Shown: piece after piece, positions 10,943-60,155 of the stretch
Numbering within the stretch: the stretch's first letter is position 1
How the letters are laid out: the number at the start of each line of letters is the position of its first letter
Virus record (IMG/VR): IMGVR_UViG_3300020188_000007
Coordinates: 1-60,990 of that record
Reading direction: 5' to 3' (one strand)
From: a virus
DNA length: 60,990 bases
Program-made: the position numbers and the translations under genes
Notes under the pieces: generated by a model
What the model was told of the DNA's origin: nothing
Seen by the model: only the letters and a program-made list of their open reading frames with translations
Database searches by the model: none

Positions 10943-10945
10943 TTA

Positions 10946-12303: not shown

Positions 12304-12321
12304 TTGATTCGGTCCTTTTCT

Positions 12322-12329
12322 TATAAATA
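12322..12329 (+). promoter_or_regulatory. T4-type late promoter (rightward)
   Basis: An exact TATAAATA on the plus strand, 27 nt before the GTG of the gp4 gene. This octamer is the whole recognition element of T4 late promoters (gp55/gp33/gp45 system). It lies only 12 bp from the leftward late promoter, and the two face each other across the divergent gene pair. Confidence 0.85.
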
Positions 12330-12340
12330 GTTTATGTTCT

Positions 12341-12348
12341 TATTTATA
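12341..12348 (-). promoter_or_regulatory. T4-type late promoter (leftward)
   Basis: TATTTATA on the plus strand gives an exact TATAAATA on the minus strand, 38 nt before the ATG of the gp48-like gene. It would drive the whole baseplate operon toward the left end of the window. Transcription from it passes through the rightward promoter at 12322. Confidence 0.85.
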
Positions 12349-12355
12349 TGGAAGT

Positions 12356-12820: not shown

Positions 12821-12822
12821 AA

Positions 12823-14199: not shown

Positions 14200-14216
14200 T
14201 AAGAGAGAGATAAATT

Positions 14217-14918: not shown

Positions 14919-15082
14919 TGTTGTGCCATTCATCACTGAGCGAATATTACCAAACGATGTTTGCTCTGGTACAACATCATAAGTATTCTATATCAGATAT
15001 TGAAAGTTTGGTACCGTATGAAAAAGAATTATATTTTACAATGTTAATTGAGTTCATGGAAAAGCAAAACGAGAATAGGTAA
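14918..15082 (+). CDS. Small chaperone extension, gp51-like (54 aa)
   Basis: This ORF lies in the -1 frame of the gp26 gene and starts at an ATG that shares one base with the gp26 stop (TAATG). Its 54 residues include YYQTMFALVQHHKYSISDIE and VPYEKELYFTMLIEFMEKQ, like the C-terminal half of frameshifted tail chaperones. It can be made either by reinitiation or by the -1 shift at 14906. T4 gp51 (249 aa) is the positional equivalent. The tape measure gene starts 5 nt later. Confidence 0.7.
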   Translation: MLCHSSLSEYYQTMFALVQHHKYSISDIESLVPYEKELYFTMLIEFMEKQNENR

Positions 15083-15087
15083 GAAAC

Positions 15088-17214: not shown

Positions 17215-18604
17215 ATATCTTTTTAATTTGGTTATCAATTGCAGTTTGCGGATCATTAATATATTGGTTTATATTAAATAGATCTTTAAGCTCATTCAGG
17301 ATTTCAATCCTTACTGAATCATTATCGTTAAAGTATTTAATTCTTTCATCAATATCCCACGCATTAGCGACTAACAATTTTTCTTGAATATGTTTAGGTA
17401 TTTGTAAACAATCAGGATCATATTGTGGATCAAGAAATGGTACAATATCGGAATAGGCATATAGTACAGGTCTAAAGTTTAGTGAGTCATTAATTGACAC
17501 GCATCTAAAAATCATTCCATACTTATATCTTTTTGTTTTATCATTGACCTCGGACGGAAGCAATGCTTCTTTATAATTTTTATGTTCTATAACATTATTA
17601 TATAGTTCTGTAAATGCAGCAGTTTCTTTAAGAGTTGTTTCCGCTCGTTCTGATCTACCGTCCTTTGATTTATTAACACCATTCTTTCTTAATGGAATAT
17701 AATAAGAACAATCATCGGATTTGACATCCTTTAGAAACTTATCCCAAATAAATCTCCTACTGCCTTTGTCCTGAAATAACGTACCGGCAAAAAACATATT
17801 ATGAGTTTTCTTAACTTCATCATCAAAGAAACTATCGAGTGTTTTTGGTTTAAATTTTTCATCATAGATAATATGCTGTAATTGTGATATATCAAGTTGT
17901 TGAAAGTTTCTTGTACCACGTGTATCATCGGCAAAATAAAACAGTTTCGTTTTAATTCCCATTTTATCAAAGTACGGTGTATAGATTGCAGGATCAATTG
18001 AAAAGGCAATCAATTCTTTATTCAATTTATTTACTTTATTGATATATCCAATACACTCCATAAACCAAAAGTAATCTTTTGTACTAAACGCATATGGTGA
18101 TACACGCTTATCCCAATTAGAAGTCATATCGGTATTCATTTCATCAATTTTTTGCATTATATCAGAATCAGTACCAATATAATCAAAGAATTCGTTTTGC
18201 ATATTATGTAGGAATTCAGAATAATCTTTACCACAAAACTTTTGTAATGGCAGCCTAAAGAAATCATCAGTACCTAAAATGATGTGGTCAACAACAGGTA
18301 AATCAACAAAACTATCATCCAACCAAGAACGCATTGTAATCGCATTCTTTTCCTTATAGTCAGGTCCGTTACCTTCTTTTCTTAAAAGACTATCGGTAGC
18401 ACCACGTTGGAGTTCATAGTAATTATCAGTGAGGCCGCAACCTGCACCGATTGTAATAATATTATATTTGTCTTTAATGTTTTCTTTTACAATACGAGCT
18501 GGGCCGTAGATGTGCGTATAGGAATTATGATTTCCTTTATCCATAAAAATAACGGTTGGTTTACTCTCATCAATAATAAGATTACCCATCAATTTAAAAA
18601 TCAT
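17207..18604 (-). CDS. GT-B-like glycosyltransferase, candidate DNA glucosyltransferase
   Basis: The 465-aa protein is unlike the standard GT-A enzymes. Its C-terminal part has SINDSLNFRPVLYAYSDIVP then FLDPQYD (about residues 364-390), which parallels YIEMIHAGVIPFLHPSYD in the GT-B-like gene at 27546 and the WETMASDAVMLIDEEFD segment of T4 beta-glucosyltransferase. The N-terminus has a Rossmann-like start (KPTVIFMDKGNHNSYTHIYG). A GAGGTGAT site precedes the ATG. Together with dCMP hydroxymethylase elsewhere this suggests transfer of sugar to hydroxymethylcytosine. Substrate is inference; it could act on another acceptor. Confidence 0.5.
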   Translation of the reverse strand: MIFKLMGNLIIDESKPTVIFMDKGNHNSYTHIYGPARIVKENIKDKYNIITIGAGCGLTDNYYELQRGATDSLLRKEGNGPDYKEKNAITMRSWLDDSFVDLPVVDHIILGTDDFFRLPLQKFCGKDYSEFLHNMQNEFFDYIGTDSDIMQKIDEMNTDMTSNWDKRVSPYAFSTKDYFWFMECIGYINKVNKLNKELIAFSIDPAIYTPYFDKMGIKTKLFYFADDTRGTRNFQQLDISQLQHIIYDEKFKPKTLDSFFDDEVKKTHNMFFAGTLFQDKGSRRFIWDKFLKDVKSDDCSYYIPLRKNGVNKSKDGRSERAETTLKETAAFTELYNNVIEHKNYKEALLPSEVNDKTKRYKYGMIFRCVSINDSLNFRPVLYAYSDIVPFLDPQYDPDCLQIPKHIQEKLLVANAWDIDERIKYFNDNDSVRIEILNELKDLFNINQYINDPQTAIDNQIKKIFS

Positions 18605-18621
18605 TTATCACCTCACATAGT

Positions 18622-18647
18622 AAAAGAAAGGGACCGAAGCCCCTTTC
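18622..18647 (-). terminator. Rho-independent terminator
   Basis: The minus strand forms GAAAGGG-loop-CCCTTTC (18626-18647) followed by TTTT. It lies just after the stop of the 72-aa gene and 18 nt before the ATG of the GT-B-like gene, so it would separate the early run from that gene. Confidence 0.75.
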
Positions 18648-18656
18648 AGTCATTTT

Positions 18657-18875
18657 TTAATCTTTATTTGAGACAAACGAGTACATTTCTGTAGCTTTTT
18701 TCGTAAGTTCCTCGACTGAATATAACTCAGTCATTTTTTGATATTCTTCAAATTGAATTTGTCCTAATTCAAACATCTTAGCTGCGTAATGATGGTTAGT
18801 TTCATGGATTTGATCCATATACTCTTTAGCCATTTGCAACATATCGGCACGAATTTCAAAAGGATTTTTACTCAT
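18657..18875 (-). CDS. Conserved small phage protein (72 aa)
   Basis: The protein is helical and acidic: NPFEIRADMLQMAKEYMDQI, then YQKMTELYSVEELTKKATEMY. Sequences of this type recur among T4-like marine phages, function unknown to me. It has no membrane segment. Its start overlaps the stop of the 69-aa phasin-like gene by 1 nt, so the two are probably translated together, and a terminator follows it. Confidence 0.75.
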   Translation of the reverse strand: MSKNPFEIRADMLQMAKEYMDQIHETNHHYAAKMFELGQIQFEEYQKMTELYSVEELTKKATEMYSFVSNKD

Positions 18876-19084
18876 TATTTCATTACCTTAGCTGCGGTTT
18901 CACCAGACGCATTCATAAAATCAGCCATTGATTTCATAGCAACCTTTGAAAAAGCTGTTTGAGCTTCAATAAAAGCATGCAGTGGCGCAGACAATTTTTC
19001 GTCTTTTACCAATGTATCAACCATTGTTTTCTTTGTAGACTGAACATGGTCAATCCAGTAGTTAGTTGTAAAGTCGTTAAACAT
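18875..19084 (-). CDS. Phasin-like small protein (69 aa)
   Basis: I chose the ATG at 19084 because AGGAGA stands 7 nt before it; the longer reading from 19141 would start inside the leader. The product is one long amphipathic helix pair: NYWIDHVQSTKKTMVDTLV and FIEAQTAFSKVAMKSMADFM. This pattern resembles phasin-type granule coat proteins and the short phasin-like proteins of some marine phages. No motif is decisive. Linked with the next gene (1-nt overlap). Confidence 0.6.
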   Translation of the reverse strand: MFNDFTTNYWIDHVQSTKKTMVDTLVKDEKLSAPLHAFIEAQTAFSKVAMKSMADFMNASGETAAKVMK

Positions 19085-19122
19085 TTTTGTTCTCCTGTGT
19101 GTGTTAAAAGGGCGACAAAGGT

Positions 19123-19341
19123 TCATCCTCCACCTGCCCACTTTTTACTTGAACGATACCAATTTTTTTGGTTATGAATGCGTCCAAGTAATTCTTGTAT
19201 CTCATGCATTTCAGCACGAGATTGTTCTGATGCATTACCTTGAGCAATAGCTAATCCTCTACGACCAGCCTTTGCTCTTAGTGCTTGTTCTATTACTTCA
19301 ATGTCTCTGACCGACAAATCAAATTTTTTGTTGGGTTTCAT
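19123..19341 (-). CDS. Hypothetical basic protein (72 aa)
   Basis: I do not recognise it. The sequence MKPNKKFDLSVRDIEVIEQA, with RAKAGRRGLAIAQGN following, is helical and basic and ends in a Gly-rich tail. Its start lies inside the last codons of the upstream gene (23-nt overlap), so it is probably coupled to it. No signal peptide or membrane segment. Confidence 0.6.
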   Translation of the reverse strand: MKPNKKFDLSVRDIEVIEQALRAKAGRRGLAIAQGNASEQSRAEMHEIQELLGRIHNQKNWYRSSKKWAGGG

Positions 19342-19555
19342 TTAATATCTCTTTTGTAATTTTGTTTGCTGGCATACAAGCAACATTTAATATTGTATCG
19401 TTAAATCCTGCAACGTCAATTACCTCTATTGCAAGCCTATCACTATTAGCAGGATTGTTGATATATTGTTTACATACGTTTTGCGTTTCAAAAGGTAAGC
19501 TCTTTAATGCAAAAGGTTCTGCTTCTAACATTGTAAAAACTATTAACCATTTCAT
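19319..19555 (-). CDS. Small protein with N-terminal signal-like segment (78 aa)
   Basis: The first 18 residues (MKWLIVFTMLEAEPFALK) are short and only partly hydrophobic, so export is uncertain. Residues 27-60 contain two Cys residues (NVCKQYINNP and NVACMPANK) that could pair if the protein reaches the periplasm. Function unknown. The 72-aa gene downstream overlaps its end. Confidence 0.6.
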   Translation of the reverse strand: MKWLIVFTMLEAEPFALKSLPFETQNVCKQYINNPANSDRLAIEVIDVAGFNDTILNVACMPANKITKEILNETQQKI

Positions 19556-19584
19556 GTCCTGTTACCTCTTAGCATTATCGGTAC

Positions 19585-19770
19585 TTATCTACTGGGCGTC
19601 ACATACCCATAATAAGAGCGATAAATTTCAGCAAGTTCTTGTTGGTCAGTTGACTCTTGAATAATATAGTCTTCTTTATCAACTCGAGATCCGTCTGCGA
19701 TTGCAATAGCATCCTCTAAACGTGATGCTAATGCAATAACTTCACCATCTTTTGATCTTATAATATGCAT
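19585..19770 (-). CDS. Hypothetical protein (61 aa)
   Basis: The ATG at 19770 shares a base with the stop of the upstream membrane-protein gene (TGATG), so I prefer it to the longer reading from 19788. The product (MHIIRSKDGEVIALASRLED, then DGSRVDKEDYIIQ) is acidic and soluble. It is not recognised and is likely coupled to its neighbour. Confidence 0.6.
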   Translation of the reverse strand: MHIIRSKDGEVIALASRLEDAIAIADGSRVDKEDYIIQESTDQQELAEIYRSYYGYVTPSR

Positions 19771-19940
19771 CAGTTCAGCCCAAAGCAAGGTAAGATATTA
19801 ACATTACAATAACGACCATATTCTTCAAGGCCAACCATTGCCATTAGCATTAGTACCGGTAATACCGCAATCATAAAAATAATAATTGCAAACGCCCAGC
19901 CTAATCCTTTAGTTGTGCAATATTGTGTTTGTTCACTCAT
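19770..19940 (-). CDS. Small membrane protein (56 aa)
   Basis: Residues 13-36 (WAFAIIIFMIAVLPVLMLMAM) form a single strong membrane helix, with Cys residues on both sides. I take the ATG at 19940, which overlaps the stop of the 119-aa gene as ATGAGTGA; the longer reading would start inside that gene. Function unknown. It is the second of two adjacent membrane proteins. Confidence 0.7.
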   Translation of the reverse strand: MSEQTQYCTTKGLGWAFAIIIFMIAVLPVLMLMAMVGLEEYGRYCNVNILPCFGLN

Positions 19941-20292
19941 GCTCGCCACCATTCGCACGGCCATCATATTTACGGCCTGATTTTAAAATGTTGTTAAATG
20001 ACTTAGGATTGTTTTCAGCTTGACGGAATGTCACGGCTGTGATTGTAATACCACTAATAAGTAATAGGTGAAACGTGGCACTAAGACCGAAAGCAATATA
20101 GCTTCCTACCATTAGGGCAAAAATACCAGACCAAATAAAGAATAGACTCTGGAAGATCATATGTGCTACCATGGGGTCTAAGTTGCGTAGTGGTGATTTT
20201 TCGACTGTCATTACGCTGTCCCACATGTCTTTGGGAATAGCAGCTAGTGTTGAGATAGTAGTTGCCCAACCAATGGGTTTTACTTTTTTCAT
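19933..20292 (-). CDS. Membrane protein with two helices (119 aa)
   Basis: Two hydrophobic helices, FIWSGIFALMVGSYIAF and ATFHLLLISGITITAVTF (about residues 53-90), follow a 45-residue cytoplasmic-looking start. I do not recognise a family. It is the first gene after a sigma70-like promoter and a terminator-like hairpin in its leader, and an 8-nt overlap couples it to the next membrane protein. Confidence 0.72.
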   Translation of the reverse strand: MKKVKPIGWATTISTLAAIPKDMWDSVMTVEKSPLRNLDPMVAHMIFQSLFFIWSGIFALMVGSYIAFGLSATFHLLLISGITITAVTFRQAENNPKSFNNILKSGRKYDGRANGGEHE

Positions 20293-20385: not shown

Positions 20386-20838
20386 TTATCCGTTGAGTTG
20401 TTCAACTGCAGATGCAGCATTATTAATAGCAATTTTACGAGGCTTCTTTTCTTCGGGAATTACATTTTCTAACGAAATAGTTAGAATGCCGCTATCAAGT
20501 GTTGCACCGTTTACTACAATCGTATCCGATAATGTAAAGGTCCTGCGGAAGTTACGTGCGGAAATACCGCGGTGCAGGTAATCAGGTTCATCTTCTTTGG
20601 GAGATTGATTTCCATCAATAGTGAGTGTTCCATCTCTCAATTCAATGTCCAAATCATCATAAGTAAAGCCTGCAATTGCTAACTGCAATTCATAGGTTTC
20701 ATCTGACGTTTTGATAATATTATAAGGGGGATAGTTTGCTTGACTCGGTGTTTCTTGTCTCATCCTTTCAATCATTCGGTCAAAGCCGATGAAGAATGGA
20801 TCATTTAACATAGACGTATCTAATCTGCGTGTATTCAT
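20386..20838 (-). CDS. hsp20: Small heat shock protein Hsp20
   Basis: The 150-aa protein has a full alpha-crystallin domain: YNIIKTSDETYELQLAIAGF, then LDIELRDGTLTIDG, FRRTFTLSDTIVVNGATLDSG and ILTISLENVIPEEKKPRKI (residues 43-136). The closing motif is the usual hydrophobic patch plus I-x-I/V. Hsp20 genes are common in marine T4-type phages; they are thought to protect phage proteins or assembly scaffolds. It has its own promoter 60 nt upstream and AAGGAG before the ATG. Confidence 0.92.
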   Translation of the reverse strand: MNTRRLDTSMLNDPFFIGFDRMIERMRQETPSQANYPPYNIIKTSDETYELQLAIAGFTYDDLDIELRDGTLTIDGNQSPKEDEPDYLHRGISARNFRRTFTLSDTIVVNGATLDSGILTISLENVIPEEKKPRKIAINNAASAVEQLNG

Positions 20839-31242: not shown

Positions 31243-31738
31243 GGTGTGTTACCAAAATACCTGCCTCTTTAAACATAGGCGCAGATTGCGTGGTCCATAA
31301 GTCAACCCATTTCTCGGGTGTGTTGTATGTTGCTTCGCGGATTACAACTCGGCGAATACCGGATTGAATAATAAGTTTAGTACAGTCAGGACACACTGGC
31401 AATCCGTGGACATATATTGTTGCATTCTTTAATGAAACACCAGAATACAAAGCATTCATCAAAGCATTAGTTTCCGCATGGACAATCCGCGGGTATTTTT
31501 CATCTCGGTTTTCTAAACGCTCAATACTATCTTCAATACCTTTTGGAAAACCATTATAACCAGTAGCAAGAATACGTCGTTCGTCATTTACACAAACAGC
31601 ACCAATCTGACTCGACGGATCTTTACTCCATTTAGAAATTGTTTCAGCCAATTCCATAAATCGCTTATCCCATTTGAGTTGACGTTCATCTTCCTCACGG
31701 TATTTTCGACTTATAAATCTATCATATGGTTCTTGCAT
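31235..31738 (-). CDS. dCMP deaminase
   Basis: The 167-aa protein has the zinc deaminase motifs: HAETNAL (with His and the catalytic Glu) and PVCPDCTKLI (P-C-x-x-C). It fits T4 dCMP deaminase (193 aa) and supplies dUMP for TMP synthesis. The ATG overlaps the stop of the FabF gene (TAATG), and its end overlaps the methyltransferase gene by 8 nt. Confidence 0.93.
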   Translation of the reverse strand: MQEPYDRFISRKYREEDERQLKWDKRFMELAETISKWSKDPSSQIGAVCVNDERRILATGYNGFPKGIEDSIERLENRDEKYPRIVHAETNALMNALYSGVSLKNATIYVHGLPVCPDCTKLIIQSGIRRVVIREATYNTPEKWVDLWTTQSAPMFKEAGILVTHLG

Positions 31739-32973
31739 TACATACCTCGAATAGCAATAGTTGAATTTAAACCACCAAACGCAAAGTTATTACTGATTGC
31801 AACATCAACCTTCTTTTTCTTTGCGGTATTTGGTACGACGTCAAGATCACATTCAGGATCAGGTTCTTCATAATTAATTGTTGGTGCAATAATGCCATCG
31901 TTTACTGCCATAATTGCCGCAAGTAATTCAACTGCACCTGTTCCGCCAATACAATGTCCGTGCATAGATTTGGTTGAACTTACACTCAATTTATGAGCAT
32001 GGTCACCGAATGTTTGTTTGATAGCATCAATTTCAGTTCTATCATTTGGAACTGTGCCTGTACCATGAGCATTTATATAATCAACTTGTTCTGGGTTAAT
32101 TGATGCATCTTTGAGGCATTTTTTCATTGATCTAATCAATCCTGAAACTTCAGGCATCACAAGATCACTTGAGTCTGCAGTACACGCCGCACCTAATACT
32201 TCACAGATGATATTTGCACCACGATTTTTAGCATGCCAATATTCTTCAAAGACAAATACACCTGCGCCTTCACCGTGAACAATACCTTGACGCCCAAGAG
32301 AAAACGGTCGACAGTAACCTGGGCTTACAACGCGCAAACCTTCCCATGCTTTCATTCCTGATAGATTTAGAATTGCTTCTGAACCACCTGTCAGCATAAC
32401 AGGAGCCATACCGTATTTAACCATATGGAATGCTTGTGTCATTGCGTGGTTAGCAGAAGCACATCCTGACGTTACAGTAAATGATGGACCTTTGATATTA
32501 TGTTCCATTGAGATATGGCAAACAGGAGCATTACCCATAACACGTGGAATAATAAAAGGATTAGCACGGCGTTTTGGATTATCAGATGCAAAGTAATTAT
32601 GATATGTCCGTTCCCAGGTTTCAGCGCCACCACTACCGTTACCCATAATAATACCTGCTTCCTCAGCAAGTTCACCATCAAATTCTAAACCTGATTGTTC
32701 TACTGCCTCGCGGGCTGCAAGTATATTGAGTTGTGTAAACCTATCAAAGATTGCAATTTGCATTCTTGTCCAATGGTCTTTTTCATCATAGCCTTTAATT
32801 TGGCCACCACGAGTGTAGCGCATATTTTGAATTTCTATGATGTTTTGGAGTTCGCTAATGCCGTCGGTGCCTTCGGCCATTGCTTTCATTGTATCTTGGG
32901 CAGTCCATCCTAAAGAATTTATAGTGCCCATGCCTGTAATAACAACACGGTTAGTCTGTCTTGTTGAGCTCAT
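31738..32973 (-). CDS. fabF: Beta-ketoacyl-ACP synthase (FabF-like)
   Basis: The 411-aa protein is a ketosynthase with the Cys-His-His triad of condensing enzymes: C171 in TSGCASAN, H303 in NAHGTGT and H340 in KSMHGHCIGGTGAVE. FabF normally has K-S-M-T-G-H-L-x-G-A-A-G, so the phage version differs at the third motif but keeps the catalytic His. It starts at the ATG 32973 rather than an upstream TTG. A fatty acid elongation enzyme among nucleotide and DNA-modification genes is unusual. I see no acyl carrier protein in the window. Confidence 0.9.
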   Translation of the reverse strand: MSSTRQTNRVVITGMGTINSLGWTAQDTMKAMAEGTDGISELQNIIEIQNMRYTRGGQIKGYDEKDHWTRMQIAIFDRFTQLNILAAREAVEQSGLEFDGELAEEAGIIMGNGSGGAETWERTYHNYFASDNPKRRANPFIIPRVMGNAPVCHISMEHNIKGPSFTVTSGCASANHAMTQAFHMVKYGMAPVMLTGGSEAILNLSGMKAWEGLRVVSPGYCRPFSLGRQGIVHGEGAGVFVFEEYWHAKNRGANIICEVLGAACTADSSDLVMPEVSGLIRSMKKCLKDASINPEQVDYINAHGTGTVPNDRTEIDAIKQTFGDHAHKLSVSSTKSMHGHCIGGTGAVELLAAIMAVNDGIIAPTINYEEPDPECDLDVVPNTAKKKKVDVAISNNFAFGGLNSTIAIRGM

Positions 32974-33154
32974 CAATTAATGTTTTCCTTTTTTCACTAC
33001 CCATTGCTCCATCAAAAAGTGATTTGGCAGAAGTCATAAGACAACTGCCGAGCATTAGGATTTCTTCATTATCATCACACATCATAATAAGCCGATCTAT
33101 TTCAGAATTAAAATAAGTCATTCTTTTTACAACGTGGCGTACGGAATGTGGCAT
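32951..33154 (-). CDS. Small protein upstream of FabF (67 aa)
   Basis: The 67-aa product (HSVRHVVKRMTYFNSEIDRL and MLGSCLMTSAKSLFDGAMG) is helical. It lacks the D-S-L site of acyl carrier proteins, so it is not an ACP. It ends inside the fabF gene by 23 nt and begins on the stop of the WYL_2-type gene, so the three are linked. Function unknown. Confidence 0.68.
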   Translation of the reverse strand: MPHSVRHVVKRMTYFNSEIDRLIMMCDDNEEILMLGSCLMTSAKSLFDGAMGSEKRKTLIDELNKTD

Positions 33155-52754: not shown

Positions 52755-52762
52755 TATAAATA
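52755..52762 (+). promoter_or_regulatory. T4-type late promoter of the curli operon
   Basis: An exact TATAAATA on the plus strand, 21 nt before the ATG at 52783, with GAGGAG in between. No other strong promoter is visible from here to 60155, so the whole rightward run is probably late. Confidence 0.87.
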
Positions 52763-52782
52763 ACCGTAGAGGAGTATTAATT

Positions 52783-53061
52783 ATGGATTTTTTAACGCTT
52801 GTTGGTGATGTAGGTTTCCCTATTGCTGGTGCCCTAGCTGCCGGTGTATTTGTATTTATCACACTTAAGTTTATCCTTGCAAGCGTTACTGACACTGTAA
52901 ATTCCCTCAAAAATATTATGACGGGTTTGGACAACCGAGTTCAGACTATGAATAACGATTTAGTGAAAATTGATGCCCTTTTAAGTTATGCTCTAAATGT
53001 TAAACCAAACATTGACCGCATAGCTGCAAATGAAGGCAAGGATGATGCAAGGAGAGATTAA
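52783..53061 (+). CDS. One-helix membrane protein, holin-like A (92 aa)
   Basis: Residues 11-33 (GFPIAGALAAGVFVFITLKFIL) form a membrane helix, followed by a coiled region (TVNSLKNIMTGLDNRVQTMN) and a charged tail. The shape, TM plus coiled coil, is that of BhlA/UviB-type holins. The gene at 53421 is a diverged copy. Its stop shares a base with the next ATG. Confidence 0.7.
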   Translation: MDFLTLVGDVGFPIAGALAAGVFVFITLKFILASVTDTVNSLKNIMTGLDNRVQTMNNDLVKIDALLSYALNVKPNIDRIAANEGKDDARRD

Positions 53062-53231
53062 TGCTTTGGAAAGATTTACTATTAATGAAATTTAAAAATG
53101 GTTTTCGCATTCTCAATAACGACGATGATAAATTTTTTGTTATTGACGACGTGAAACTAAATATCGGTGACATTTATCGAGTTGGCCCAAACGGTTACTT
53201 CGAGTTAATTGAAGAAGGACCGCCGCTATGA
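53061..53231 (+). CDS. Small acidic protein (56 aa)
   Basis: I found this ORF by translation; its start overlaps the holin-like stop (TAATG). The product (MLWKDLLLMKFKNGFRILNN, then VGPNGYFELIEEG) resembles the next 63-aa protein near PGDKFIVNEDGWL. Small soluble protein, function unknown, translated in the same chain of overlapping genes. Confidence 0.65.
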   Translation: MLWKDLLLMKFKNGFRILNNDDDKFFVIDDVKLNIGDIYRVGPNGYFELIEEGPPL

Positions 53232-53419
53232 TGTGGATGGAATATGCGATTAATCAAGCTGGAAAAAACTTTGAAATAAAAGGTGACTGGCCCGGAGAGG
53301 TTATGGGAAAACTAAAAGACGGTACGGATAAAGAATATTATCTATACAAACCAGGCGATAAGTTTATAGTTAATGAAGATGGTTGGTTGATGCATCACGG
53401 AAACATTAACGAGGAATAA
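53228..53419 (+). CDS. Small acidic protein (63 aa)
   Basis: The gene begins with ATGATG overlapping the previous stop. The product (MMWMEYAINQAGKNFEIKG, then YLYKPGDKFIVNEDGWLMHH) has beta-strand character. Its C-terminal motif is like the previous small gene. No family is recognised. The next gene starts 1 nt after its stop. Confidence 0.62.
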   Translation: MMWMEYAINQAGKNFEIKGDWPGEVMGKLKDGTDKEYYLYKPGDKFIVNEDGWLMHHGNINEE

Positions 53420-53420
53420 T

Positions 53421-53801
53421 ATGGAATTTGACATTGCAGGAGCCATAAGTGAATATGGATTTCCTATAGTTGCGGCTTTTGGAATGGGCTATTTTATATT
53501 TTTTATATGGAAATGGGTTACGGAAGTAATTGATCCGGTCCTAGGTGAAGCGATGTTTACTTTGATTAAATTAGTAGATCGTGTACGTATGCTTGATAAT
53601 GATATGATTAGACTTAATAGCAAGTTATCTATGGTACTTGAATATAGGTCAAAACTAAATCCTAAGCGACAAGATGAGTTGCATAGGTTGGTTGCCGAAT
53701 ATCAGGCAGGTAGTAAAGCGTTTAATTCAACTGGGGTTGTAGATGAAGAAAATATTAACAATAGTGGCGGTGATGATGCCGGCACAGGTAATAGCAAGTG
53801 A
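53421..53801 (+). CDS. One-helix membrane protein, holin-like B (126 aa)
   Basis: Residues 12-32 (YGFPIVAAFGMGYFIFFIWKW) form a membrane helix, then a coiled region VDRVRMLDNDMIRLNSKLSM, and a Gly/Asp-rich tail. It shares the order of the 92-aa protein: GFPI then D-N/DR-V then N-D. The two look like a duplicated holin or spanin-like pair. Its last 59 nt also encode the CsgF signal peptide. Confidence 0.7.
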   Translation: MEFDIAGAISEYGFPIVAAFGMGYFIFFIWKWVTEVIDPVLGEAMFTLIKLVDRVRMLDNDMIRLNSKLSMVLEYRSKLNPKRQDELHRLVAEYQAGSKAFNSTGVVDEENINNSGGDDAGTGNSK

Positions 53802-54204
53802 ATTAGTTTGGGGATTTAAATCTCCCGCTTTTCATTATGGTAATGGATATTCAACTCACGTTTTGTCGGTTGAACAACTTTCTCACAACAGAAAACAAGA
53901 TTATAAAGACGAGCAACAACGTATTGCCGATGAACTTGAGCGAGAAGCAGAAAATACTACTTTAGCCAAATTCCTTCGCAACGTAGAGTCAAGAATTTAC
54001 GCTACGTTATCCAAACAAATGGTTGATGCTATGTTTGCCGATTGTGGCGACAGTTGTTCCAACAGCGGTTCAACTGACCTTGAAGATAATACGATTGCTT
54101 GGTTAAGAGACCCGGTAACAGGTTCTATCACATTAACGATTACCGAAGCAGATGGTAGTACTACTGAAATCACAATACCAGGTGCTGGGGAGTTTAATTT
54201 CTAA
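53743..54204 (+). CDS. csgF: Curli assembly factor CsgF
   Basis: The 153-aa protein has a signal peptide (MKKILTIVAVMMPAQVIAS) and a mature start ELVWGFKSPAFHYGNG, which fits the CsgF start T-F-Q-F-R-N-P-N-F-G-G. Its end, GSITLTITEADGSTTEITIP, matches the D-x-x-T-G-Q-x-S-T-I-Q-V end. CsgF binds CsgG and anchors the nucleator at the cell surface. It overlaps the preceding gene by 59 nt and is followed by csgG with no gap. Confidence 0.82.
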   Translation: MKKILTIVAVMMPAQVIASELVWGFKSPAFHYGNGYSTHVLSVEQLSHNRKQDYKDEQQRIADELEREAENTTLAKFLRNVESRIYATLSKQMVDAMFADCGDSCSNSGSTDLEDNTIAWLRDPVTGSITLTITEADGSTTEITIPGAGEFNF

Positions 54205-55017
54205 ATGAGATTTTTACCCTTCATACTAATATTCTTTTTAAGTGCCTGCGCAACACCCGGAAGTTTGAAAGTTTTAGGTGACCTTGATAAATCTCCAACA
54301 TTATCAGGAAGTCCTATTGATGATAGATTACTCGCCGTTCCTGAACTGTCAGGTCCAAAGATTACAATTGCAGTTTATGAATTTGCCGATAAGACAGGTC
54401 AAAGAAAGACGAGTTCCAACTCATCATTATCAAGTGCCGTAACTCAAGGTGCTGAGGTTTGGGTAATTAAAGCATTACAAGATGTGGGCAATCAAACATG
54501 GTTTGAGGTAGTTGAAAGAGTTGGCATTGATAATCTAATTAAAGAAAGACAGCTTATTCGCCAAACGCGTGAAGTATATGAAAAAGAAAAAGAAAAAGGC
54601 CCGACACCTTTACAGCCAATGTTATTTGCCGGCTTATTACTTGAAGGTGGTGTTGTAGGTTATGACTCCGATACCGCGGCCGGTGGAGTAGGTGCAAGAT
54701 TCCTAGGAGTCGGAGCCTCAACAGAATATAGAGTTGATACAGTAACAGTTGTTATGAGACTTGTGAGTGTTAATTCAGGAAAGGTGTTAATGAGTATCGC
54801 AACTGAGAAATCAATTGCAAGTTACAGATCTTCAACCGATGTATTTAAATTTATTGATTTAGGACAAGAAAATATTGAGGTTGAAAATGGGTATTCCGTA
54901 AATGAACCTGTGAACTATGCAGTAAGGGCTGCAATAGAACAGGGTGTGATAGAATTGGTTAAAGACGGGGTCGATAAGGGATTATGGTCGTATAAAATAA
55001 AAGAGATAAGAGGATAG
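54205..55017 (+). CDS. csgG: Curli secretion channel CsgG (lipoprotein)
   Basis: The 270-aa protein opens with a lipoprotein signal ending in LSAC (lipidated Cys at 15) and keeps CsgG-family parts: ITIAVYEFADKTGQRK, WFEVVERVGIDNLIKERQLI, GPTPLQPMLFAGLLLEGGVVGYD and RVDTVTVVMRLVSVNSGKVL. E. coli CsgG (277 aa) forms a nonameric outer-membrane pore. Length and motif order are normal, so a working channel is plausible. It is coupled to csgF on one side and to a curlin-like gene on the other. Confidence 0.93.
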   Translation: MRFLPFILIFFLSACATPGSLKVLGDLDKSPTLSGSPIDDRLLAVPELSGPKITIAVYEFADKTGQRKTSSNSSLSSAVTQGAEVWVIKALQDVGNQTWFEVVERVGIDNLIKERQLIRQTREVYEKEKEKGPTPLQPMLFAGLLLEGGVVGYDSDTAAGGVGARFLGVGASTEYRVDTVTVVMRLVSVNSGKVLMSIATEKSIASYRSSTDVFKFIDLGQENIEVENGYSVNEPVNYAVRAAIEQGVIELVKDGVDKGLWSYKIKEIRG

Positions 55018-55019
55018 AA

Positions 55020-55757
55020 ATGAAGCATTTCATATTTTTGATTATGATGATGTTTGGTTCTGCAGCCTATGCCAACGATATCTACATTACACAAAGCGGT
55101 GACAATTTAGATTTAGACATAACACAAGATGGGCAAGATAACGAATTCGGTGATAGTACCACTGATGCAACTTTGACGGGTGATACAATGACTTTTAATA
55201 TCACCCAAACAGGTGATTTTAACAAGATTGACGTTATCATTGATGGTAACAACTACACAGGTACTTGGGCATTTACAGGTGACGATAACACTGTTGATAT
55301 GACTTGTGATTCCGCATCAGGTTTGAATTGTGAAACAGTTCAGGTTGATGTTACTGTTATAGGTGATGATTCTGACTTTAAGATTTACATTGGTGAAACA
55401 GCAGATGCCGATAGTTTAGTTGCTGACTTTACTGTTACAGGTGATGGTAACGCATTTTATCTTGATGCTGATGGCACAAATCAGAATTTTGATGTTAATG
55501 TTAATTCAAGCGCAACATTACTTACAGCAGGTACAGATCGTACACATTTAACTTACGATGTTAATGCTGATAGTGCCGGTAACTTGATTGCTATTGACAG
55601 CACAGGAGATGGTGATGTTAATGGGCATGAAGTAGATCTTACAGTTACTGGTGGCGGCGGAGATTTTATTATTGTTCAAAGCGGTATTTACGATAATCTC
55701 GTAAACGCAACTTTCAGTGGAGATTCAGCAAATGTTCAAATTACACAATCTGATTAA
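55020..55757 (+). CDS. Curlin-like secreted protein A (245 aa)
   Basis: A signal peptide (MKHFIFLIMMMFGSAAYAND) is followed by curlin-type repeats with N and Q at fixed steps: YITQSGDNLDLDITQDGQDNE, then FNITQTGDFNKIDVII, VTVIGDDSDFKIYI, and FIIVQSGIYDN. The last residues, VQITQSD, echo the first. The repeats are less regular than in CsgA, so it may be a CsgB-like nucleator. Lies just after csgG and its stop overlaps the FecR gene start. Confidence 0.75.
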   Translation: MKHFIFLIMMMFGSAAYANDIYITQSGDNLDLDITQDGQDNEFGDSTTDATLTGDTMTFNITQTGDFNKIDVIIDGNNYTGTWAFTGDDNTVDMTCDSASGLNCETVQVDVTVIGDDSDFKIYIGETADADSLVADFTVTGDGNAFYLDADGTNQNFDVNVNSSATLLTAGTDRTHLTYDVNADSAGNLIAIDSTGDGDVNGHEVDLTVTGGGGDFIIVQSGIYDNLVNATFSGDSANVQITQSD

Positions 55758-56902
55758 TGAAATTTCATACTATTGGCTTCATTGCCATTCTGCTGATACC
55801 GAGCTTATGCTTTGGCGCTGTAGATGAAGATGCGGGGGCAATCGGTGAATTTTCAGGATCAGGAGTCATTGAGCGTGGGAGAGATGTTATTGATGGTGGC
55901 CAAGGTGTTGGGGTGCAACCCATGGATACCGCCGTCACAGCAAAAGGCCGAATGCGAATCGACTTTATTGATGATACGAGAGTCGATATTACCGAACACG
56001 CAAGGTTAGTAATTGATGATTTCGTTTATGACCCAAATGCTGGGACTGGTAAGCTGGGATTACGTGCGACATTGGGAACAGTACGCTATGCGTCTGGAGC
56101 AATTGCAAAGAACAGCAGAAGAAACGTCAGCATCAAAACACCGTCAGCAACGATAGGTGTACGTGGTACTGATTTCGTTATGGTGGTTGATGAAATAGGT
56201 GGCACGATGGTGACATTATTACCATCGTGTTCCATCGACTCCCTCGGAAAAACCAATTGCGTGACCGGTGAAATTTCAGTTGAGTCTGACACCGGGTTTG
56301 TTATTATGAATAAAGCATTTCAGGCAACAATAGTAAAAAGCAGATGGACAAAACCAACTAAGCCATTATTATTGGCGCTTAATGAAAGTGACATAACAAA
56401 CCTTTTGATTTTAAGAAAGAAAAAACCTTTATTTGAAGAAGATGGGCAACCATTAGAACAAATGACGGATTTCCTAGATATAGATTTCTTAAATTTTGAC
56501 GGTTTGGATGTTGATATTTTATCCGATAGTATTAAAGACATATGGTTAACAGAGTTTGATTTAAGAGATAGTGATTATTATCTCGGTGAACTACTACACG
56601 ACATGGTTGAACAATTAAACATTGCTTTAATGCGAAGACTTATGGGTGAATTAGATGCACAGAATGCCGAGTTCTTTAATTTCAGAGAAGAAGGTTATGA
56701 TCCTGTAACAAGAATTACTTTAAACAGAGAAGATCCTAGTTGGATTTTTGAAAGAGACGATAGTGGTTATTATCACCACCTAAGAATATATGTGGAGCAG
56801 CAATATGGATATACGATTAATATCCAACAACAGGACGAGTATGTTTGGGATTACCGTCTTGGCGTTGGTAATAATAATATTGACATCATCCAAATCAAAT
56901 AG
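55757..56902 (+). CDS. FecR-domain envelope protein (381 aa)
   Basis: After a signal peptide (MKFHTIGFIAILLIPSLCFG) the protein has a FecR domain: VQPMDTAVTAKGRMRIDFI, then VRGTDFVMVVDE (residues 136-147) as in FecR proteins with the G-V-R-G-T-x-F core. The C-terminal half has a long charged region (YYLGELLHDMVEQLNIALM). FecR domains can bind polymers or transmit signals. Its final 98 nt encode the signal peptide of the next gene in another frame. Confidence 0.85.
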   Translation: MKFHTIGFIAILLIPSLCFGAVDEDAGAIGEFSGSGVIERGRDVIDGGQGVGVQPMDTAVTAKGRMRIDFIDDTRVDITEHARLVIDDFVYDPNAGTGKLGLRATLGTVRYASGAIAKNSRRNVSIKTPSATIGVRGTDFVMVVDEIGGTMVTLLPSCSIDSLGKTNCVTGEISVESDTGFVIMNKAFQATIVKSRWTKPTKPLLLALNESDITNLLILRKKKPLFEEDGQPLEQMTDFLDIDFLNFDGLDVDILSDSIKDIWLTEFDLRDSDYYLGELLHDMVEQLNIALMRRLMGELDAQNAEFFNFREEGYDPVTRITLNREDPSWIFERDDSGYYHHLRIYVEQQYGYTINIQQQDEYVWDYRLGVGNNNIDIIQIK

Positions 56903-57683
56903 TGGACCAAATGAAGTTTATATGTATCAAACAGGTGACGACTTTACGTTAACTATCACCCAAGATGGCAGTCAGAATTATATAACTGGTGTAAGTGGAC
57001 AGACTAAAGGTATTGAAGGTGACAACAATACGGTTGATATGGTACAAATAGGACAGTATCATGGTATCGCAGGAATGTTAGATGGTGATAACAATAACAT
57101 AGATTTTTATCAAGGTGGCGGTGGTGACAGCGGAATGATTACTGCAATGGTAACAGGTAATAATAATGACCTGGTGGTGTGGCAAGGTAAGCATCCTGAT
57201 GGTACAACTGACTTGTCAGAAGGCGGTGACCACACTGCAACGGTTACCATTACTGGTGATTATAATGATATTAAGGCCGGACAAACTGATCAAGGACAAA
57301 TTAATCAAACTTATGGTAGGCATGAATTAACCGCAGAAATTACCGGTGATAGCAATGATGTTGGAATGACACAAAAAGGAAATCAAAAGCATACATTGGA
57401 CCTTGATATTTCTGGTGATGGTAATGATGTTACAACTTATCAGCGTGGTGATGGCGGACAAAAAACTGCAACCATTGAAGTTTCTGGCAACTATAACGTA
57501 ATTGATGTAAACCAACGTGGAACAAATTCAGCGTCAGCAACCATTTCAGTAGAAAGCATATATGGTCCTGCCTATAATGTAACACTTAGCCAACAAACCG
57601 ACACTTCTGCTAAATCATTTTCTTTAAGTGGTGTATGTAATGATCCAAATGGATGTGTCGTAAGTGTCGAGCAACACAACTAG
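56805..57683 (+). CDS. Curlin-like secreted protein B (292 aa)
   Basis: I start at ATG 56805 because GGAG lies 7 nt before it and it gives a signal anchor (MFGITVLALVIIILTSS). The rest is a row of about eight G-D/N-x-N-x-V repeats with a Q some residues later, for example NDVGMTQKGNQ, GDGNDVTTYQRGDGGQ and NYNVIDVNQRGTN. This is a good curlin pattern. It may be the major subunit exported by CsgG. It overlaps the FecR gene by 98 nt. Confidence 0.82.
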   Translation: MDIRLISNNRTSMFGITVLALVIIILTSSKSNSGPNEVYMYQTGDDFTLTITQDGSQNYITGVSGQTKGIEGDNNTVDMVQIGQYHGIAGMLDGDNNNIDFYQGGGGDSGMITAMVTGNNNDLVVWQGKHPDGTTDLSEGGDHTATVTITGDYNDIKAGQTDQGQINQTYGRHELTAEITGDSNDVGMTQKGNQKHTLDLDISGDGNDVTTYQRGDGGQKTATIEVSGNYNVIDVNQRGTNSASATISVESIYGPAYNVTLSQQTDTSAKSFSLSGVCNDPNGCVVSVEQHN

Positions 57684-57691
57684 GAGAAGTA

Positions 57692-57802
57692 ATGGATACA
57701 GTCGTCGCGTTTTTCATAGCAGGATTTTTTACAGCATTCGGTTGGTGGGCAGCAAACAAAATAACAACCCAAATTGATACACATATTGAGCAGGCTGAGT
57801 AA
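57692..57802 (+). CDS. Tiny membrane protein (36 aa)
   Basis: Read from ATG 57692 with AGGAGA upstream; the product (MDTVVAFFIAGFFTAFGWWA) is one hydrophobic helix with a short polar tail. Its stop overlaps the start of the next gene (TAATG). Small late membrane peptides of phages often help lysis; I have no specific match. Confidence 0.6.
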   Translation: MDTVVAFFIAGFFTAFGWWAANKITTQIDTHIEQAE

Positions 57803-58164
57803 TGGATTTAATTTTAAGTTTGGCTTTGTCAACACATTTGGGTCTTTCTCAAGATTATAATGAAATTCATCCTCATATAAGATTAACTAATGATAAATAT
57901 ATCGCAGGCGCATATTATAACAGCGTCGAAAAATTGAGTGTATACTCAGGAATAAAATATAGTTATGGTGATATTGCAATAGAAGGAGGTGTGGCTACAG
58001 GCTATAGGCCACATCCAATAGCTCCTTATGGTAGGGTAACCTACGATTACGTGGATAATATAAGATTATTTGGGACTACGGCATTTGAATCCGACGGCTC
58101 TGCAGCTCGAGGAGGAATTGTATTAGGAATAGAATTTATACTAAATCCACGGGAGAAGCAATGA
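57802..58164 (+). CDS. Outer-membrane-like small protein (120 aa)
   Basis: The N-terminus (MDLILSLALSTHLGLSQDYN) may be a short signal. The rest alternates hydrophobic and polar residues in strands (HIRLTNDKYIAGAYYNS, SVYSGIKYSYGDIAIEGGV, RLFGTTAFESDG), as in a small beta barrel. No match to a named family. It overlaps the next gene by 4 nt (ATGA). Confidence 0.6.
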   Translation: MDLILSLALSTHLGLSQDYNEIHPHIRLTNDKYIAGAYYNSVEKLSVYSGIKYSYGDIAIEGGVATGYRPHPIAPYGRVTYDYVDNIRLFGTTAFESDGSAARGGIVLGIEFILNPREKQ

Positions 58165-60155
58165 AACATTTACTATTAACAACTGCATTAGTCATACCAA
58201 GCTGGGCTATTGCTGATACTTCGAGTTTACAAACATCATCTCACGGTTTACTTGAGAACCAATGGGTTAAAGCTGGCATTAATAAAGACTCAGGCACATT
58301 TGGCTCTGGCGGAAGTACATCACCGGGCCTGTTATTTGATCCTGAAGGTTCGGGTACATTTAATTCTAGTTATGATTATCTGACGCCTGGCTCGCCGTTT
58401 GACGGACAAGCACTAAAGGTAGATGGCACAAATAAAGCAAATAATAATACAGGCTCAAAAACTATCGTTGACTCTGACGGTTTAACAGACGGCACAGACA
58501 GCATGACTTGGAGTGGTGATGTTGATGTTGATGGCGGTACATGGAATGTTGAAAATACATTTACATTAGAAGATAATAAACCATACATTGATGTTGAAAC
58601 AAAAATTACCGCAGGTTCTGATGCTGATACTGTAGCATATGGTAAATTTATTGACCCAGACTCACAAGGTATGCCGGGAGATAGTTCATCAACAGATAAC
58701 GTACTTGGGTATTCAGGTGTTCCTGATACAAACATTGCCTTTTCAGAAGCAACTGTTTCAAAGTATGCATTAGGTGTTTATTCAACGGATACAAACACTA
58801 CTGCAGGCGTCAATGGTTGGTCATCAGAAGCAGATGGATATAACGGAACAAGTTATACAGATGCCGAAGGCAATGCTGTCAATTACGGCAATTCAGATGA
58901 TACTATTGGTATTAGTTGGTCTTGGACTGGTGTATCAACAGGCGACATTCTTACAGCAAAATATGCTTATATCTTCGGCCCATCAGCGTTTGATGCACTT
59001 GATGATGCAGTAGATGGTGGAGCAGGCGGTGGTACTCCTGGCGAATTACCTACAGGGTGGTCACTTGATGATGTTGGATCAGCAACAGATGCTGCCGAAA
59101 GCGGCGGAGCACCAACAGTTGTAAGTACCGCAACCGAAACTATTACTTCAACATCAGAAGCAATAAGCACAACACTACCTGTTTTAACTGGTGCAATCAC
59201 AACGCATGACTCATCTACAGCTGACGGTGTTCAAACTATTGACCGTGAAACTACTACGACTGTAACAACACCGATGGATGTAACAACCACAAGCTTTGTT
59301 AGAACTACTGATACTATGAGTGACGGCAGCGAAGTTGTTACAGACGGTACTCCAACATCAACTACAGTTGTTCGTAATGATGCTGTTGTAACTGTAACTG
59401 ATCCAGGTTCATTCGTTGGACGTATGGATCAAGCATCGCAATTAATCGGATTAAATACTCATCGCAATTTAAATATAGCTGATGGCGTATCAGTAGGTCG
59501 CATTAACCATTCGATGGGTGATAACTACGAAGCAACATCAACGGTGGTTGGTCTTGGTCACACACTTGTAACCGACGATGCGTTAAGACTAAGCCTAGGT
59601 ATTAATAGAATTGATACTGAAATGTCAGAAGGCGGCGATGGTGAAATAATAACAAACGCTGTGTCTGCTGAATTAGGAAAGGCAATAGAAGATAAAGACA
59701 TTACCGTCGTAGGACGAGTAAACATGGCTAAATCTGATATTGAATATTCAAGAACAATCGGTACTTTTTCTGCGGCAGGTGAAACATCAGCTTCTGACGT
59801 TTCTGCTGGGCTAACAATTGAAAAATCAACTGGTTCTGTTAGACCTTTCGGTGGATTAACTATCGGAAAATCAAGCACTGATGGATGGACTGAAACCGGA
59901 GATGTTCAAGCTGTTTTAACTCATGATGAAGCAGACGCTACATACAGATATGGTACAATAGGTTTCAATATTGATGAAGGACCAATTACCGCTACATTTA
60001 GTAAAAACATTGGCGACAATGATGCCACTAATATAAGAATTGGTTTTGAACAAGAAATAAATGAATATGCTATTGTCGGTGTAGATTATAATAGAACTTT
60101 GGATGAAGATAATTCAAGCAATTATTTCTCAGCAGGTATCAAGATACGGTTTTAA
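58161..60155 (+). CDS. Autotransporter-like protein with C-terminal barrel (664 aa)
   Basis: The protein has a signal peptide (MKHLLLTTALVIPSWAIADT), a Gly/Ser/Asp-rich passenger, a Thr-rich linker (TTTTVTTPMDVTTTSF region, about residues 350-400) and a 12-strand-like C-terminal half that ends in YFSAGIKIRF. A terminal Phe in an outer-membrane barrel is the usual BAM recognition signal. I read it as a phage-encoded autotransporter or barrel adhesin. Its place at the end of the curli operon links it to the outer membrane. It is late by context. Confidence 0.72.
   Translation: MKHLLLTTALVIPSWAIADTSSLQTSSHGLLENQWVKAGINKDSGTFGSGGSTSPGLLFDPEGSGTFNSSYDYLTPGSPFDGQALKVDGTNKANNNTGSKTIVDSDGLTDGTDSMTWSGDVDVDGGTWNVENTFTLEDNKPYIDVETKITAGSDADTVAYGKFIDPDSQGMPGDSSSTDNVLGYSGVPDTNIAFSEATVSKYALGVYSTDTNTTAGVNGWSSEADGYNGTSYTDAEGNAVNYGNSDDTIGISWSWTGVSTGDILTAKYAYIFGPSAFDALDDAVDGGAGGGTPGELPTGWSLDDVGSATDAAESGGAPTVVSTATETITSTSEAISTTLPVLTGAITTHDSSTADGVQTIDRETTTTVTTPMDVTTTSFVRTTDTMSDGSEVVTDGTPTSTTVVRNDAVVTVTDPGSFVGRMDQASQLIGLNTHRNLNIADGVSVGRINHSMGDNYEATSTVVGLGHTLVTDDALRLSLGINRIDTEMSEGGDGEIITNAVSAELGKAIEDKDITVVGRVNMAKSDIEYSRTIGTFSAAGETSASDVSAGLTIEKSTGSVRPFGGLTIGKSSTDGWTETGDVQAVLTHDEADATYRYGTIGFNIDEGPITATFSKNIGDNDATNIRIGFEQEINEYAIVGVDYNRTLDEDNSSNYFSAGIKIRF

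Follow-up and report, generated by a model that had tools for sequence, protein, structure and literature searches.

Positions 52755 to 60155 of the window (the whole stretch of 60,990 nt that was analysed, virus record IMGVR_UViG_3300020188_000007) carry what we read as a late-transcribed phage type VIII (curli) secretion operon, in which a FecR-domain protein would act as fibre tether, the small membrane proteins TM1 and TM2 as partners and an adenylate cyclase as reporter, the whole serving adhesion near lysis. We give this reading in its entirety a probability of roughly 45%. Late export of fibres, taken by itself, is probable. The analysis itself shows gene content, homology, conservation, the promoter core and predicted folds for two of the proteins; we infer that the infected host would export two curlin-like proteins via CsgG, CsgF sitting at the outer opening of the pore, and that the curlin-like proteins would assemble into beta-solenoid, amyloid-type fibres. 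The folded N-terminal domain of the FecR-domain protein would be kept in the periplasm, like the retention domain of large adhesins, while its linker would thread the CsgG pore and its external curlin-like tail would seed or cap the fibre. TM1 and TM2 may be partners of the module in the inner membrane, possibly of holin origin, and the CHASE2-adenylate cyclase may report the state of the envelope or the fibre through cAMP. The likeliest use would be that infected cells or their remains adhere to other cells near lysis; such a benefit to the phage is nonetheless doubtful, and cultures infected with phage Melnitz did not clump according to the accessible text of PMC9004378, a point against our reading.

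All reading frames previously listed for this region were present, all on the + strand, and Pfam recovered CsgF, CsgG, a curlin-like protein, a FecR-domain protein and a second curlin-like protein in the order given by the initial annotation, with the holin-like pair ahead of them. CsgF (53743..54204) was found at E 1.5e-11 and is 48% identical to CsgF of the cultured pelagiphage HTVC008M. CsgG (54205..55017), with a lipobox-like cysteine recognized by eye, was found at E 5.7e-50, and a profile matched the solved CsgG at E 5.1e-69, in agreement with the identity proposed for it. The solved CsgF was reached by profile at E 0.46 only, over profile positions 7-38, and was absent from the phmmer matches of the window CsgF alone; the entry 7ong, top row for a 7-row CsgF profile, is a designed repeat protein that was apparently hit by chance. 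CsgE and CsgC had been described as lacking, and a scan of the ten operon proteins gave no match to either Pfam family; nor was CsgD, likewise expected of a curli set of the E. coli type, found among these ten. The missing CsgE counts against our reading. TM1, TM2, CsgF, CsgG, both curlin-like proteins (Cur1 and Cur2) and the FecR-domain protein are under purifying selection wherever dS could be estimated (dN/dS ~0.03-0.28).

The T4-type late-promoter core TATAAATA is present in exact form at 52755..52762, as annotated, and begins 28 nt ahead of the first start codon. Its count over the window was dropped as promoter evidence, since it is not enriched there (7 found, 8.29 expected). Comparative placement is the better evidence: TAAATA, a pattern picked only after the upstream stretches had been inspected, occurs in the 60 nt that precede TM1 in 31 of 47 distinct stretches, and it likewise precedes csgF in 20 of the 25 cases where csgF comes first. 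In the controls it was seen ahead of csgG in 0/57, ahead of Cur1-labelled frames in 2/70 and in 3.1% of random 60-mers. This supports a conserved late-promoter core. Together with the protein families, the structural model of Cur1 and a gene order shared with cultured marine phages, it supports the initial annotation of a late operon encoding curli secretion proteins.

Cur1 (55020..55757) carries a curlin repeat that is weak by Pfam (E 0.0014, 19.0 bits against a cut-off of 20.7) and is 44% identical to an HTVC008M protein annotated CsgB. Structure prediction, which had been proposed for the curlin-like chains, gave a continuous beta-solenoid for Cur1 (pLDDT 82.5); the CsgA fibril 8enq is among its structural matches with Z 9.7, but with an rmsd of 9.0 Å. 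Cur2 (56790..57683) has clear curlin repeats in five stretches (Pfam E 3.9e-13), and translation probably begins at one of the later ATGs in the frame. The identity to HTVC008M and the Cur1 model rule out that the curlins of the window are chance low-complexity sequence. Of the 84 entries in our relative set (which includes the window itself and one piece of it), 83 have a curlin-like frame alongside csgG; the exception, L057, ends in csgG. Fibre export is therefore more likely than permeabilisation of the outer membrane by the pore alone, one of the functions first suggested. The genes of the module also stay together when FecR is the starting point: csgG was found in 74 and a curlin in all of the 75 newly numbered loci.

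The FecR-domain protein (55757..56902, 381 aa, Pfam E 1.1e-8) appears to be secreted and to consist of two parts: after a signal peptide (by eye) comes a domain resembling both FecR signalling domains and adhesin anchors, followed by a linker and a curlin-like C-terminal tail. The Pfam domain was present in all 39 dereplicated phage proteins. All 39 also end in a phi-x-phi-x-Q motif no more than 4 residues from the C-terminus; among 563 other phage frames, 2 do so. This pattern was chosen once the tails had been viewed. HHalign scored the tail against curlin at 25.4 and 23.7, where column shuffles (60 each) reached at most 14.4 and 12.0 and reversed controls 14.8 and 15.8; the corresponding probabilities are low (18% and 10%), the Pfam curlin repeat matched 0 of the 39 phage FecR proteins at E up to 1, and no structural match covered the tail. 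The N-terminal domain, in its predicted fold, superimposes on the cell-surface anchoring domain 5ix9 (Z 10.7, 2.2 Å, 73 of 76 residues), which is also its best sequence match, at E 0.1 only. This is the likeness to the retention module of large RTX adhesins of the LapA type, for which we rely on the accessible part of PMC13090378. FecR-related domains stand in RTX-repeat proteins of Alphaproteobacteria: such proteins made up 4 of the 8 scanned among the 20 best bacterial relatives examined. Unlike RTX adhesins, the phage protein is only 381 aa long, has a curlin-like tail and appears to be exported by a signal peptide (by eye), and its pore would be CsgG, whereas RTX adhesins use a TolC-like channel. 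A role as fibre anchor or nucleator is our tentative assignment, slightly short of an even chance; labelled until now as an iron regulator, the protein resembles a fibre anchor more closely. It is possible, though we would not call it probable, that the phage has re-engineered the type VIII system with an anchor of its own, the CsgG pore holding the fibre by a periplasmic FecR/retention plug. If so, TM1, TM2 and a CHASE2 cyclase sensing the envelope would complete a machine peculiar to phages, with which dying cells present tethered amyloid. In the parts of the openly licensed literature that were searched, no prior statement of such an anchor plug was found for phage curli modules.

The same domain invites another explanation, that FecR works with the CHASE2-adenylate cyclase as its sensor or signalling partner in the periplasm and that the operon combines curli with a cAMP arm; the accessible text of PMC9599517 comes close to this in proposing FecR as a regulator. 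The strongest fold matches of the FecR domain are indeed signalling domains, the cell-surface signalling domain of PupR (Z 15.4) and a putative anti-sigma factor (Z 14.0), both above 5ix9, and the phage protein has the Pfam domain and the outer-domain fold in common with PupR and FecR. Of the 84 entries, 58 have the cyclase alongside the module. In the near-identical contig L003 it starts ~1.26 kb past the right edge of the window (CHASE2 E 5.3e-32, cyclase domain E 1e-16), and in L003-L005 it lies ~2.1 kb after the large gene Bar, outside the window, as the last known gene of the operon. However, unlike in PupR and FecR, the N-terminus ahead of the domain is short by alignment and the signal peptide (by eye) runs straight into the domain, which would leave no space for a cytosolic anti-sigma segment; the operon has no sigma factor among its noted genes, and the curlin-like tail would be left without explanation. 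We consider this sensor reading unlikely, if worth keeping in mind. The leading pair brings in lysis instead, with CsgG as a pinholin-like pore, as in the accessible text of PMC9004378, or TM1/TM2 as a holin pair setting the time of release. TM1 (52783..53061, 92 aa, 48% identical to HTVC008M gp011) and TM2 (53421..53801, 126 aa, 54% to gp012 over 72 aa) both belong to phrog_18771 (E 3.5e-30 and 5.8e-28) and are paralogs. Of these two proteins, described as holin-like, only TM1 gave a match to a holin family, and a weak one (E 0.008). In L071, TM1 is preceded by an endolysin and an Rz/Rz1 pair; L042, L046 and L050 have an Rz1-like frame a short distance upstream of TM1, and in record G009 a cell-wall-hydrolase match lies ~2 kb from it. 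In G005, the contig of L003, on the other hand, the single hydrolase match was found ~70 kb away, and in the phage collection TM1 occurs in six records, all of HTVC008M or Melnitz. TM1 thus tracks the curli module, and we have downgraded TM1/TM2 as ordinary holins. The pinholin argument rests on missing curlins, yet the Melnitz record annotates two curlin-repeat proteins. Overall, a lysis function seems quite improbable.

Two further proposals concern the cell surface and the pore. Fibres or barrel proteins might change the surface of the infected cell and so exclude or slow other phages, a benefit named in the accessible text of PMC9599517. Both a PagP-like and a large barrel-like gene are part of the module in the window and its near relatives: a small envelope protein with a match to the PagP family (57802..58164; phrog_3600, E 1.2e-8, residues 8-86) and Bar (58161..60155), a large secreted protein (664 aa) whose C-terminus resembles an outer-membrane barrel (by eye). 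Bar, which stands in or beside the curli module in relatives, gave no Pfam, PHROG or NCBIfam match and reached solved structures at E 0.1 only. Late timing is late for exclusion, however, and Bar and the PagP-like gene were seen in only 6 and 4 of the 84 entries (9/77 and 12/77 in one locus set, 9/75 and 17/75 in another), so we regard exclusion as improbable, albeit a little less so than lysis. The infected cell might also import larger nutrients or cofactors through CsgG. This idea, suggested in the accessible texts of PMC7029224 and PMC9599517, would suit the absence of the CsgE gate among the ten operon proteins; it leaves two conserved curlins, CsgF and the FecR tail unexplained and is very improbable.

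As a kind, the operon is not new, since phage curli operons are in print for marine phages. The initial annotation had correctly named a link to pelagimyophages, and had suggested looking for the same gene order elsewhere: it is found in the cultured phages HTVC008M and Melnitz. The accessible parts of PMC7029224, PMC9599517 and PMC9004378 describe such type VIII modules (T8SS) in HTVC008M, uncultured pelagimyophages, HTVC023P-type podophages and the OM43 phage Melnitz, and novelty is therefore much below the first estimate. The order TM1, TM2, CsgF, CsgG, curlin, FecR, curlin, cyclase is common to these modules and the window phage; in HTVC008M six genes are 43-54% identical and the second curlin 31%. 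CsgF, CsgG and curlin repeats occur together, FecR stands between two curlins, a membrane pair leads and a cyclase is nearby (L003-L005), as expected for a viral T8SS. The window phage differs by the PagP-like gene, Bar and further genes between the second curlin and the cyclase. Alphaproteobacterial curli operons, too, have CsgF-CsgG followed by curlin-repeat proteins, but models for FecR, TM1/TM2 and the cyclase found no match near csgFG within the examined stretches of 73 bacterial loci, unlike in phages. Curli genes are put at ~0.1% of assembled viral proteins in GOV2.0, and as widespread in ocean phages, in the accessible text of PMC9599517. With parts assigned (FecR as anchor, curlins as cargo, the TM pair and cyclase as phage-specific partners), annotations become testable constructs. 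Three readings in the accessible published texts are also put in question: the assignment of FecR as an iron regulator; the histidine-kinase label given by position to the leading genes in PMC9599517, although TM1/TM2 of neither the window nor HTVC008M matched a histidine-kinase family; and the absence of curlins in Melnitz reported in PMC9004378, which the two curlin-repeat proteins annotated in its record contradict.

A bacterial contaminant was ruled out: the sequence is a virus record with a T4-type baseplate wedge protein, which is nearest to that of Sinorhizobium phages and less close to that of pelagimyophages, and three viral contigs (L003-L005) carry a CsgG 100% identical to that of the window. 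Smaller frames complete the region, two of 56 and 63 aa at 53061..53419, with related frames in 24 and 30 of the 84 entries, and a single-TM frame of 49 aa or shorter at 57653..57802. The loop between TGQ and AV in the phage CsgG differs from that of E. coli. A phage-altered pore was nevertheless rejected, because alphaproteobacterial loops differ likewise, in a comparison of 46 phage with 69 bacterial loops (4 further bacterial ones did not match the pattern); the one phage-specific trait in this loop is the residue directly after TGQ, R in almost all phage loops and F in most bacterial ones.

The operon at 52755-60155 is a real, conserved and phage-specific form of curli (type VIII) secretion, of a kind already known from other marine phages. 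The frames and families named by the initial annotation were present where it had placed them in the window. At the sequence level CsgG could be assigned beyond doubt, with a Pfam match at E 5.7e-50 and a match of the solved CsgG to a 12-row profile at E 5.1e-69, covering profile positions 3-259 of 261. CsgF was a member of its Pfam family (E 1.5e-11); a profile from seven phage CsgFs matched solved CsgF weakly (E 0.46) and only at the N-terminal end (positions 7-38), where one proline, one phenylalanine and two glycines are invariant. The second curlin-like protein, Cur2, showed five curlin-repeat stretches in Pfam, and the first, Cur1, one under the Pfam cut-off. A curlin-like chain had been expected to form a beta-solenoid, and the AlphaFold2 model of Cur1 (35 sequences; mean pLDDT 82.5, pTM 0.81) was predicted as a continuous one. 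Its top structural matches, at Z about 15, were Suf proteins, which are likewise beta-helical; the E. coli CsgA fibril 8enq aligned at Z 9.7, though with 109 residues superposed the rmsd was a poor 9.0 A. The probable kinship of Cur1 to curlins rests on repeats and synteny.

The cultured pelagiphage HTVC008M had the same gene order, with CsgF, CsgG and CsgB annotated. The paired holin-like paralogs at the operon front (TM1, TM2), CsgF, CsgG, Cur1 and the FecR protein, encoded between the two curlins, were 43-54% identical to their HTVC008M counterparts, and Cur2 31% over 201 residues. HTVC008M Cur2 (L001 10638-11963) has an additional PA14 domain (E 2.7e-6), which could bind sugars. The link of curli-like genes to pelagimyophages is borne out in print: PMC7029224 describes a curli-associated protein alongside CsgF and CsgG in such phages. 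PMC9599517 describes a fuller set in podo- and myophages (CsgA/B, FecR, 'histidine kinase', adenylate cyclase), and PMC9004378 describes CsgG and CsgF in the OM43 phage Melnitz, for which it proposes a pinholin or secretin function. The carrier, FecR as candidate fibre anchor, doubt about the histidine-kinase label, and the Melnitz curlins are new here.

The module behaved largely as a unit. In a set of 84 entries, made up of 80 viral loci plus HTVC008M, Melnitz, the window and a piece of the window, many of which stop inside the module, csgF and a curlin-like frame were each present in 83, FecR in 77, the TM pair in 72 and the CHASE2-adenylate cyclase, the operon's last known gene, in 58. TM1-TM2 and the cyclase were sometimes inverted or displaced, still near the rest. 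With FecR as anchor, csgG was found in 74/75 loci and a curlin-like frame in 75/75. With TM1 as anchor, csgG was visible in 54 of 77 newly numbered loci, and 22 of the other 23 run out, on one side or both, at most about 1.7 kb from the visible module. L239 carries TM1, TM2 and cyclase at 9998-14221 and no csgG anywhere in its 31.8 kb contig, the sole visible case of these genes apart from curli genes. In the phage collection (E up to 1), TM1 matched six records, all HTVC008M or Melnitz. At 53061-53419, TM1 and TM2 are separated by two small conserved frames, which have kin in 24 and 30 of the 84 entries and matched no known family.

A search with phage CsgG as query supplied a further 80 loci from assemblies of bacteria and archaea. 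Seven (L084-L089, L126) resemble phage contigs within genome bins; six of these have a match to TM, FecR or the cyclase, and L086 was separated by high scores alone. These contigs, from bins named Rhodobacteraceae, Pirellulales, Pelagibacter, Flavobacteriaceae and Flavobacteriales, encode the phage-type set or else a closely related CsgG, and curli genes assigned to bins like these may belong to viruses. The remaining 73 loci had csgF and csgG, and almost all of them curlin-repeat frames as well; within the stretches covered the TM1, TM2, FecR and cyclase models found no match at E 1e-3.

The baseplate wedge protein (3797-5671) was nearest to that of Sinorhizobium phages phiN3, phiM12 and kin (40.8%). 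Next came Caulobacter phage Cr30 at 33.3% and Melnitz at 32.7%, with HTVC008M lower in the ranking at 31.2%. The module thus also occurs in a phage of the T4 superfamily that, judged by this one gene, is not close to the pelagimyophages. A CsgG search of the phage collection (E 1e-5) returned 12 records (HTVC008M two, Melnitz four, Brevundimonas five, Salmonella one), none from the Sinorhizobium phages or Cr30. The CsgG-like genes of the large Brevundimonas phages Bambus, Domovoi, Papperlapapp, Marchewka and Kabachok are distant (26-28%); that of Salmonella phage record OR851715 (1.5 kb) reaches 42%. A contig of jumbo-phage size (L228, 357,559 bases) holds the entire module at 9713-18277. By eye, the window also encodes a putative ketoacyl-ACP synthase (31738-32976) and a putative small heat-shock protein (20386-20838).

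With start codons assigned mechanically, we counted TAAATA, a pattern picked after the exact-motif counts, in the 60 nt before each gene. It preceded TM1 in 31 of 47 distinct upstream stretches, and csgF, when first, in 20/25. Frequencies were 12/32 for csgF not in first place, 7/45 for TM2, 0/57 for csgG, 2/70 for Cur1-labelled frames, 1/50 for FecR, 4/34 for Cur2 and 14/43 for the cyclase (random 60-mers, 3.1%). The exact TATAAATA occurred within 120 nt of TM1 in 10/48 (random 0.9%). This distribution supports, without proving, late transcription of the module. Between the window and up to five relatives (L084, L241, L242, L023, L006), dN/dS was about 0.03-0.28 for TM1, TM2, CsgF, CsgG, Cur1, FecR and Cur2 where dS was estimable, rough values as many dS were infinite or above 1; a PagP-like gene gave 0.18-0.41 (81-82 codons, three relatives). 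The large secreted barrel-like protein (58161-60155) matched no counterpart in these five.

PMC9599517 labels FecR an iron-dependent regulator. In the window protein a signal peptide (by eye) is directly followed by the FecR domain. Its model (mean pLDDT 77.5, pTM 0.51) has a well-predicted N-terminal beta domain, followed by a poorly predicted segment at 217-276 and a long helix; from 313 to 379 there are strands, at a block pLDDT of mostly 82-90 that falls to 67 at the extreme end. The N-domain matched the PupR outer domain at Z 15.4 and a putative anti-sigma factor at Z 14.0; a match to 5ix9 followed at Z 10.7, with 73 of 76 residues aligned at 2.2 A. Named 'Antifreeze protein' and 'Cell surface anchoring domain' in database entries, 5ix9 is the part of an ice-binding RTX adhesin that anchors it. 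The nearest NCBIfam names, far under cut-off, were Leptospira surface adhesin and lipoprotein models. The FecR profile matched 101 of 289 alphaproteobacterial genomes at E 1e-5, and among the matches listed none extended past position 216 of 366, so that none of these bacterial matches took in the tail. At the best 20 loci, about 105-160 residues of open frame preceded the domain in 18, and the frame stayed open to the locus end in 17, partly due to contig end; of eight scanned, all had the FecR domain and four RTX repeats.

The 77 loci gave 68 full-length FecR proteins, of which 39 remained after dereplication, and all 39 carried phi-x-phi-x-Q within four residues of the C-terminus, as did 45/56 first-position curlins, 28/46 other phage curlins and 126/224 bacterial curlin-repeat frames, against 2/563 other phage frames and 58/2047 other bacterial-locus frames. 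In HHalign the tail scored 25.4 with Cur1, where 60 column shuffles averaged 8.6 and peaked at 14.4 and the reversed control reached 14.8, and 23.7 with Cur2 (shuffles highest 12.0; reversed 15.8), at low probabilities (18% and 10%). The Pfam curlin repeat matched 0/39 FecR proteins, and a structural search of the model gave no match for the tail. The FecR protein likely ends in a curlin-like tail, and an anchor or nucleator of the fibre is a better guess than an iron regulator; the main rival is a sensor paired with the cyclase. According to PMC10133297, E. coli CsgF helps anchor the nucleator CsgB, and according to PMC13090378 large adhesins are held by a periplasmic retention module; by analogy, the phage protein could join CsgB-like nucleation or anchoring with adhesin-type retention.

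By position, we infer that TM1/TM2 are the 'histidine kinases' of PMC9599517, yet neither matched histidine-kinase families. A holin pair is possible: L071 has an endolysin and Rz/Rz1 pair, then TM1, and in L042, L046 and L050 TM1 has an Rz1-like frame a short way upstream. Among five large virus records, the match to the Melnitz cell-wall hydrolase lay about 2 kb from the module in G009, 9-11 kb in G008 and G006, 70 kb in G005 and far away in G010. The pair tracks the curli module, however, which is not expected of a general holin, and a partner of that module is likelier. A pore-only reading loses its main ground because the Melnitz record, for which PMC9004378 states csgA and csgB to be absent, has annotated curlin-repeat proteins on both sides of FecR; our models labelled both as curlins too. 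The same paper saw no clumping with Melnitz, which speaks against simple aggregation of cells.

The cyclase would start about 1.26 kb beyond the window's right edge, provided that L003, a piece of a 221 kb contig with CsgG 100% identical to the window's, is collinear. There it combines a CHASE2 domain with a class III cyclase domain (18049-20091) and reads GDAVSTAARI, with S where the canonical motif has N. Among 44 distinct full-length cyclases, 18 had S and 8 had N by the pattern, which missed the other 18. Relatives of the window have a class 3 lipase close to the module (L021 261-1025, Pfam E 6.9e-22), and L003 has a similar frame at 20390-20809.
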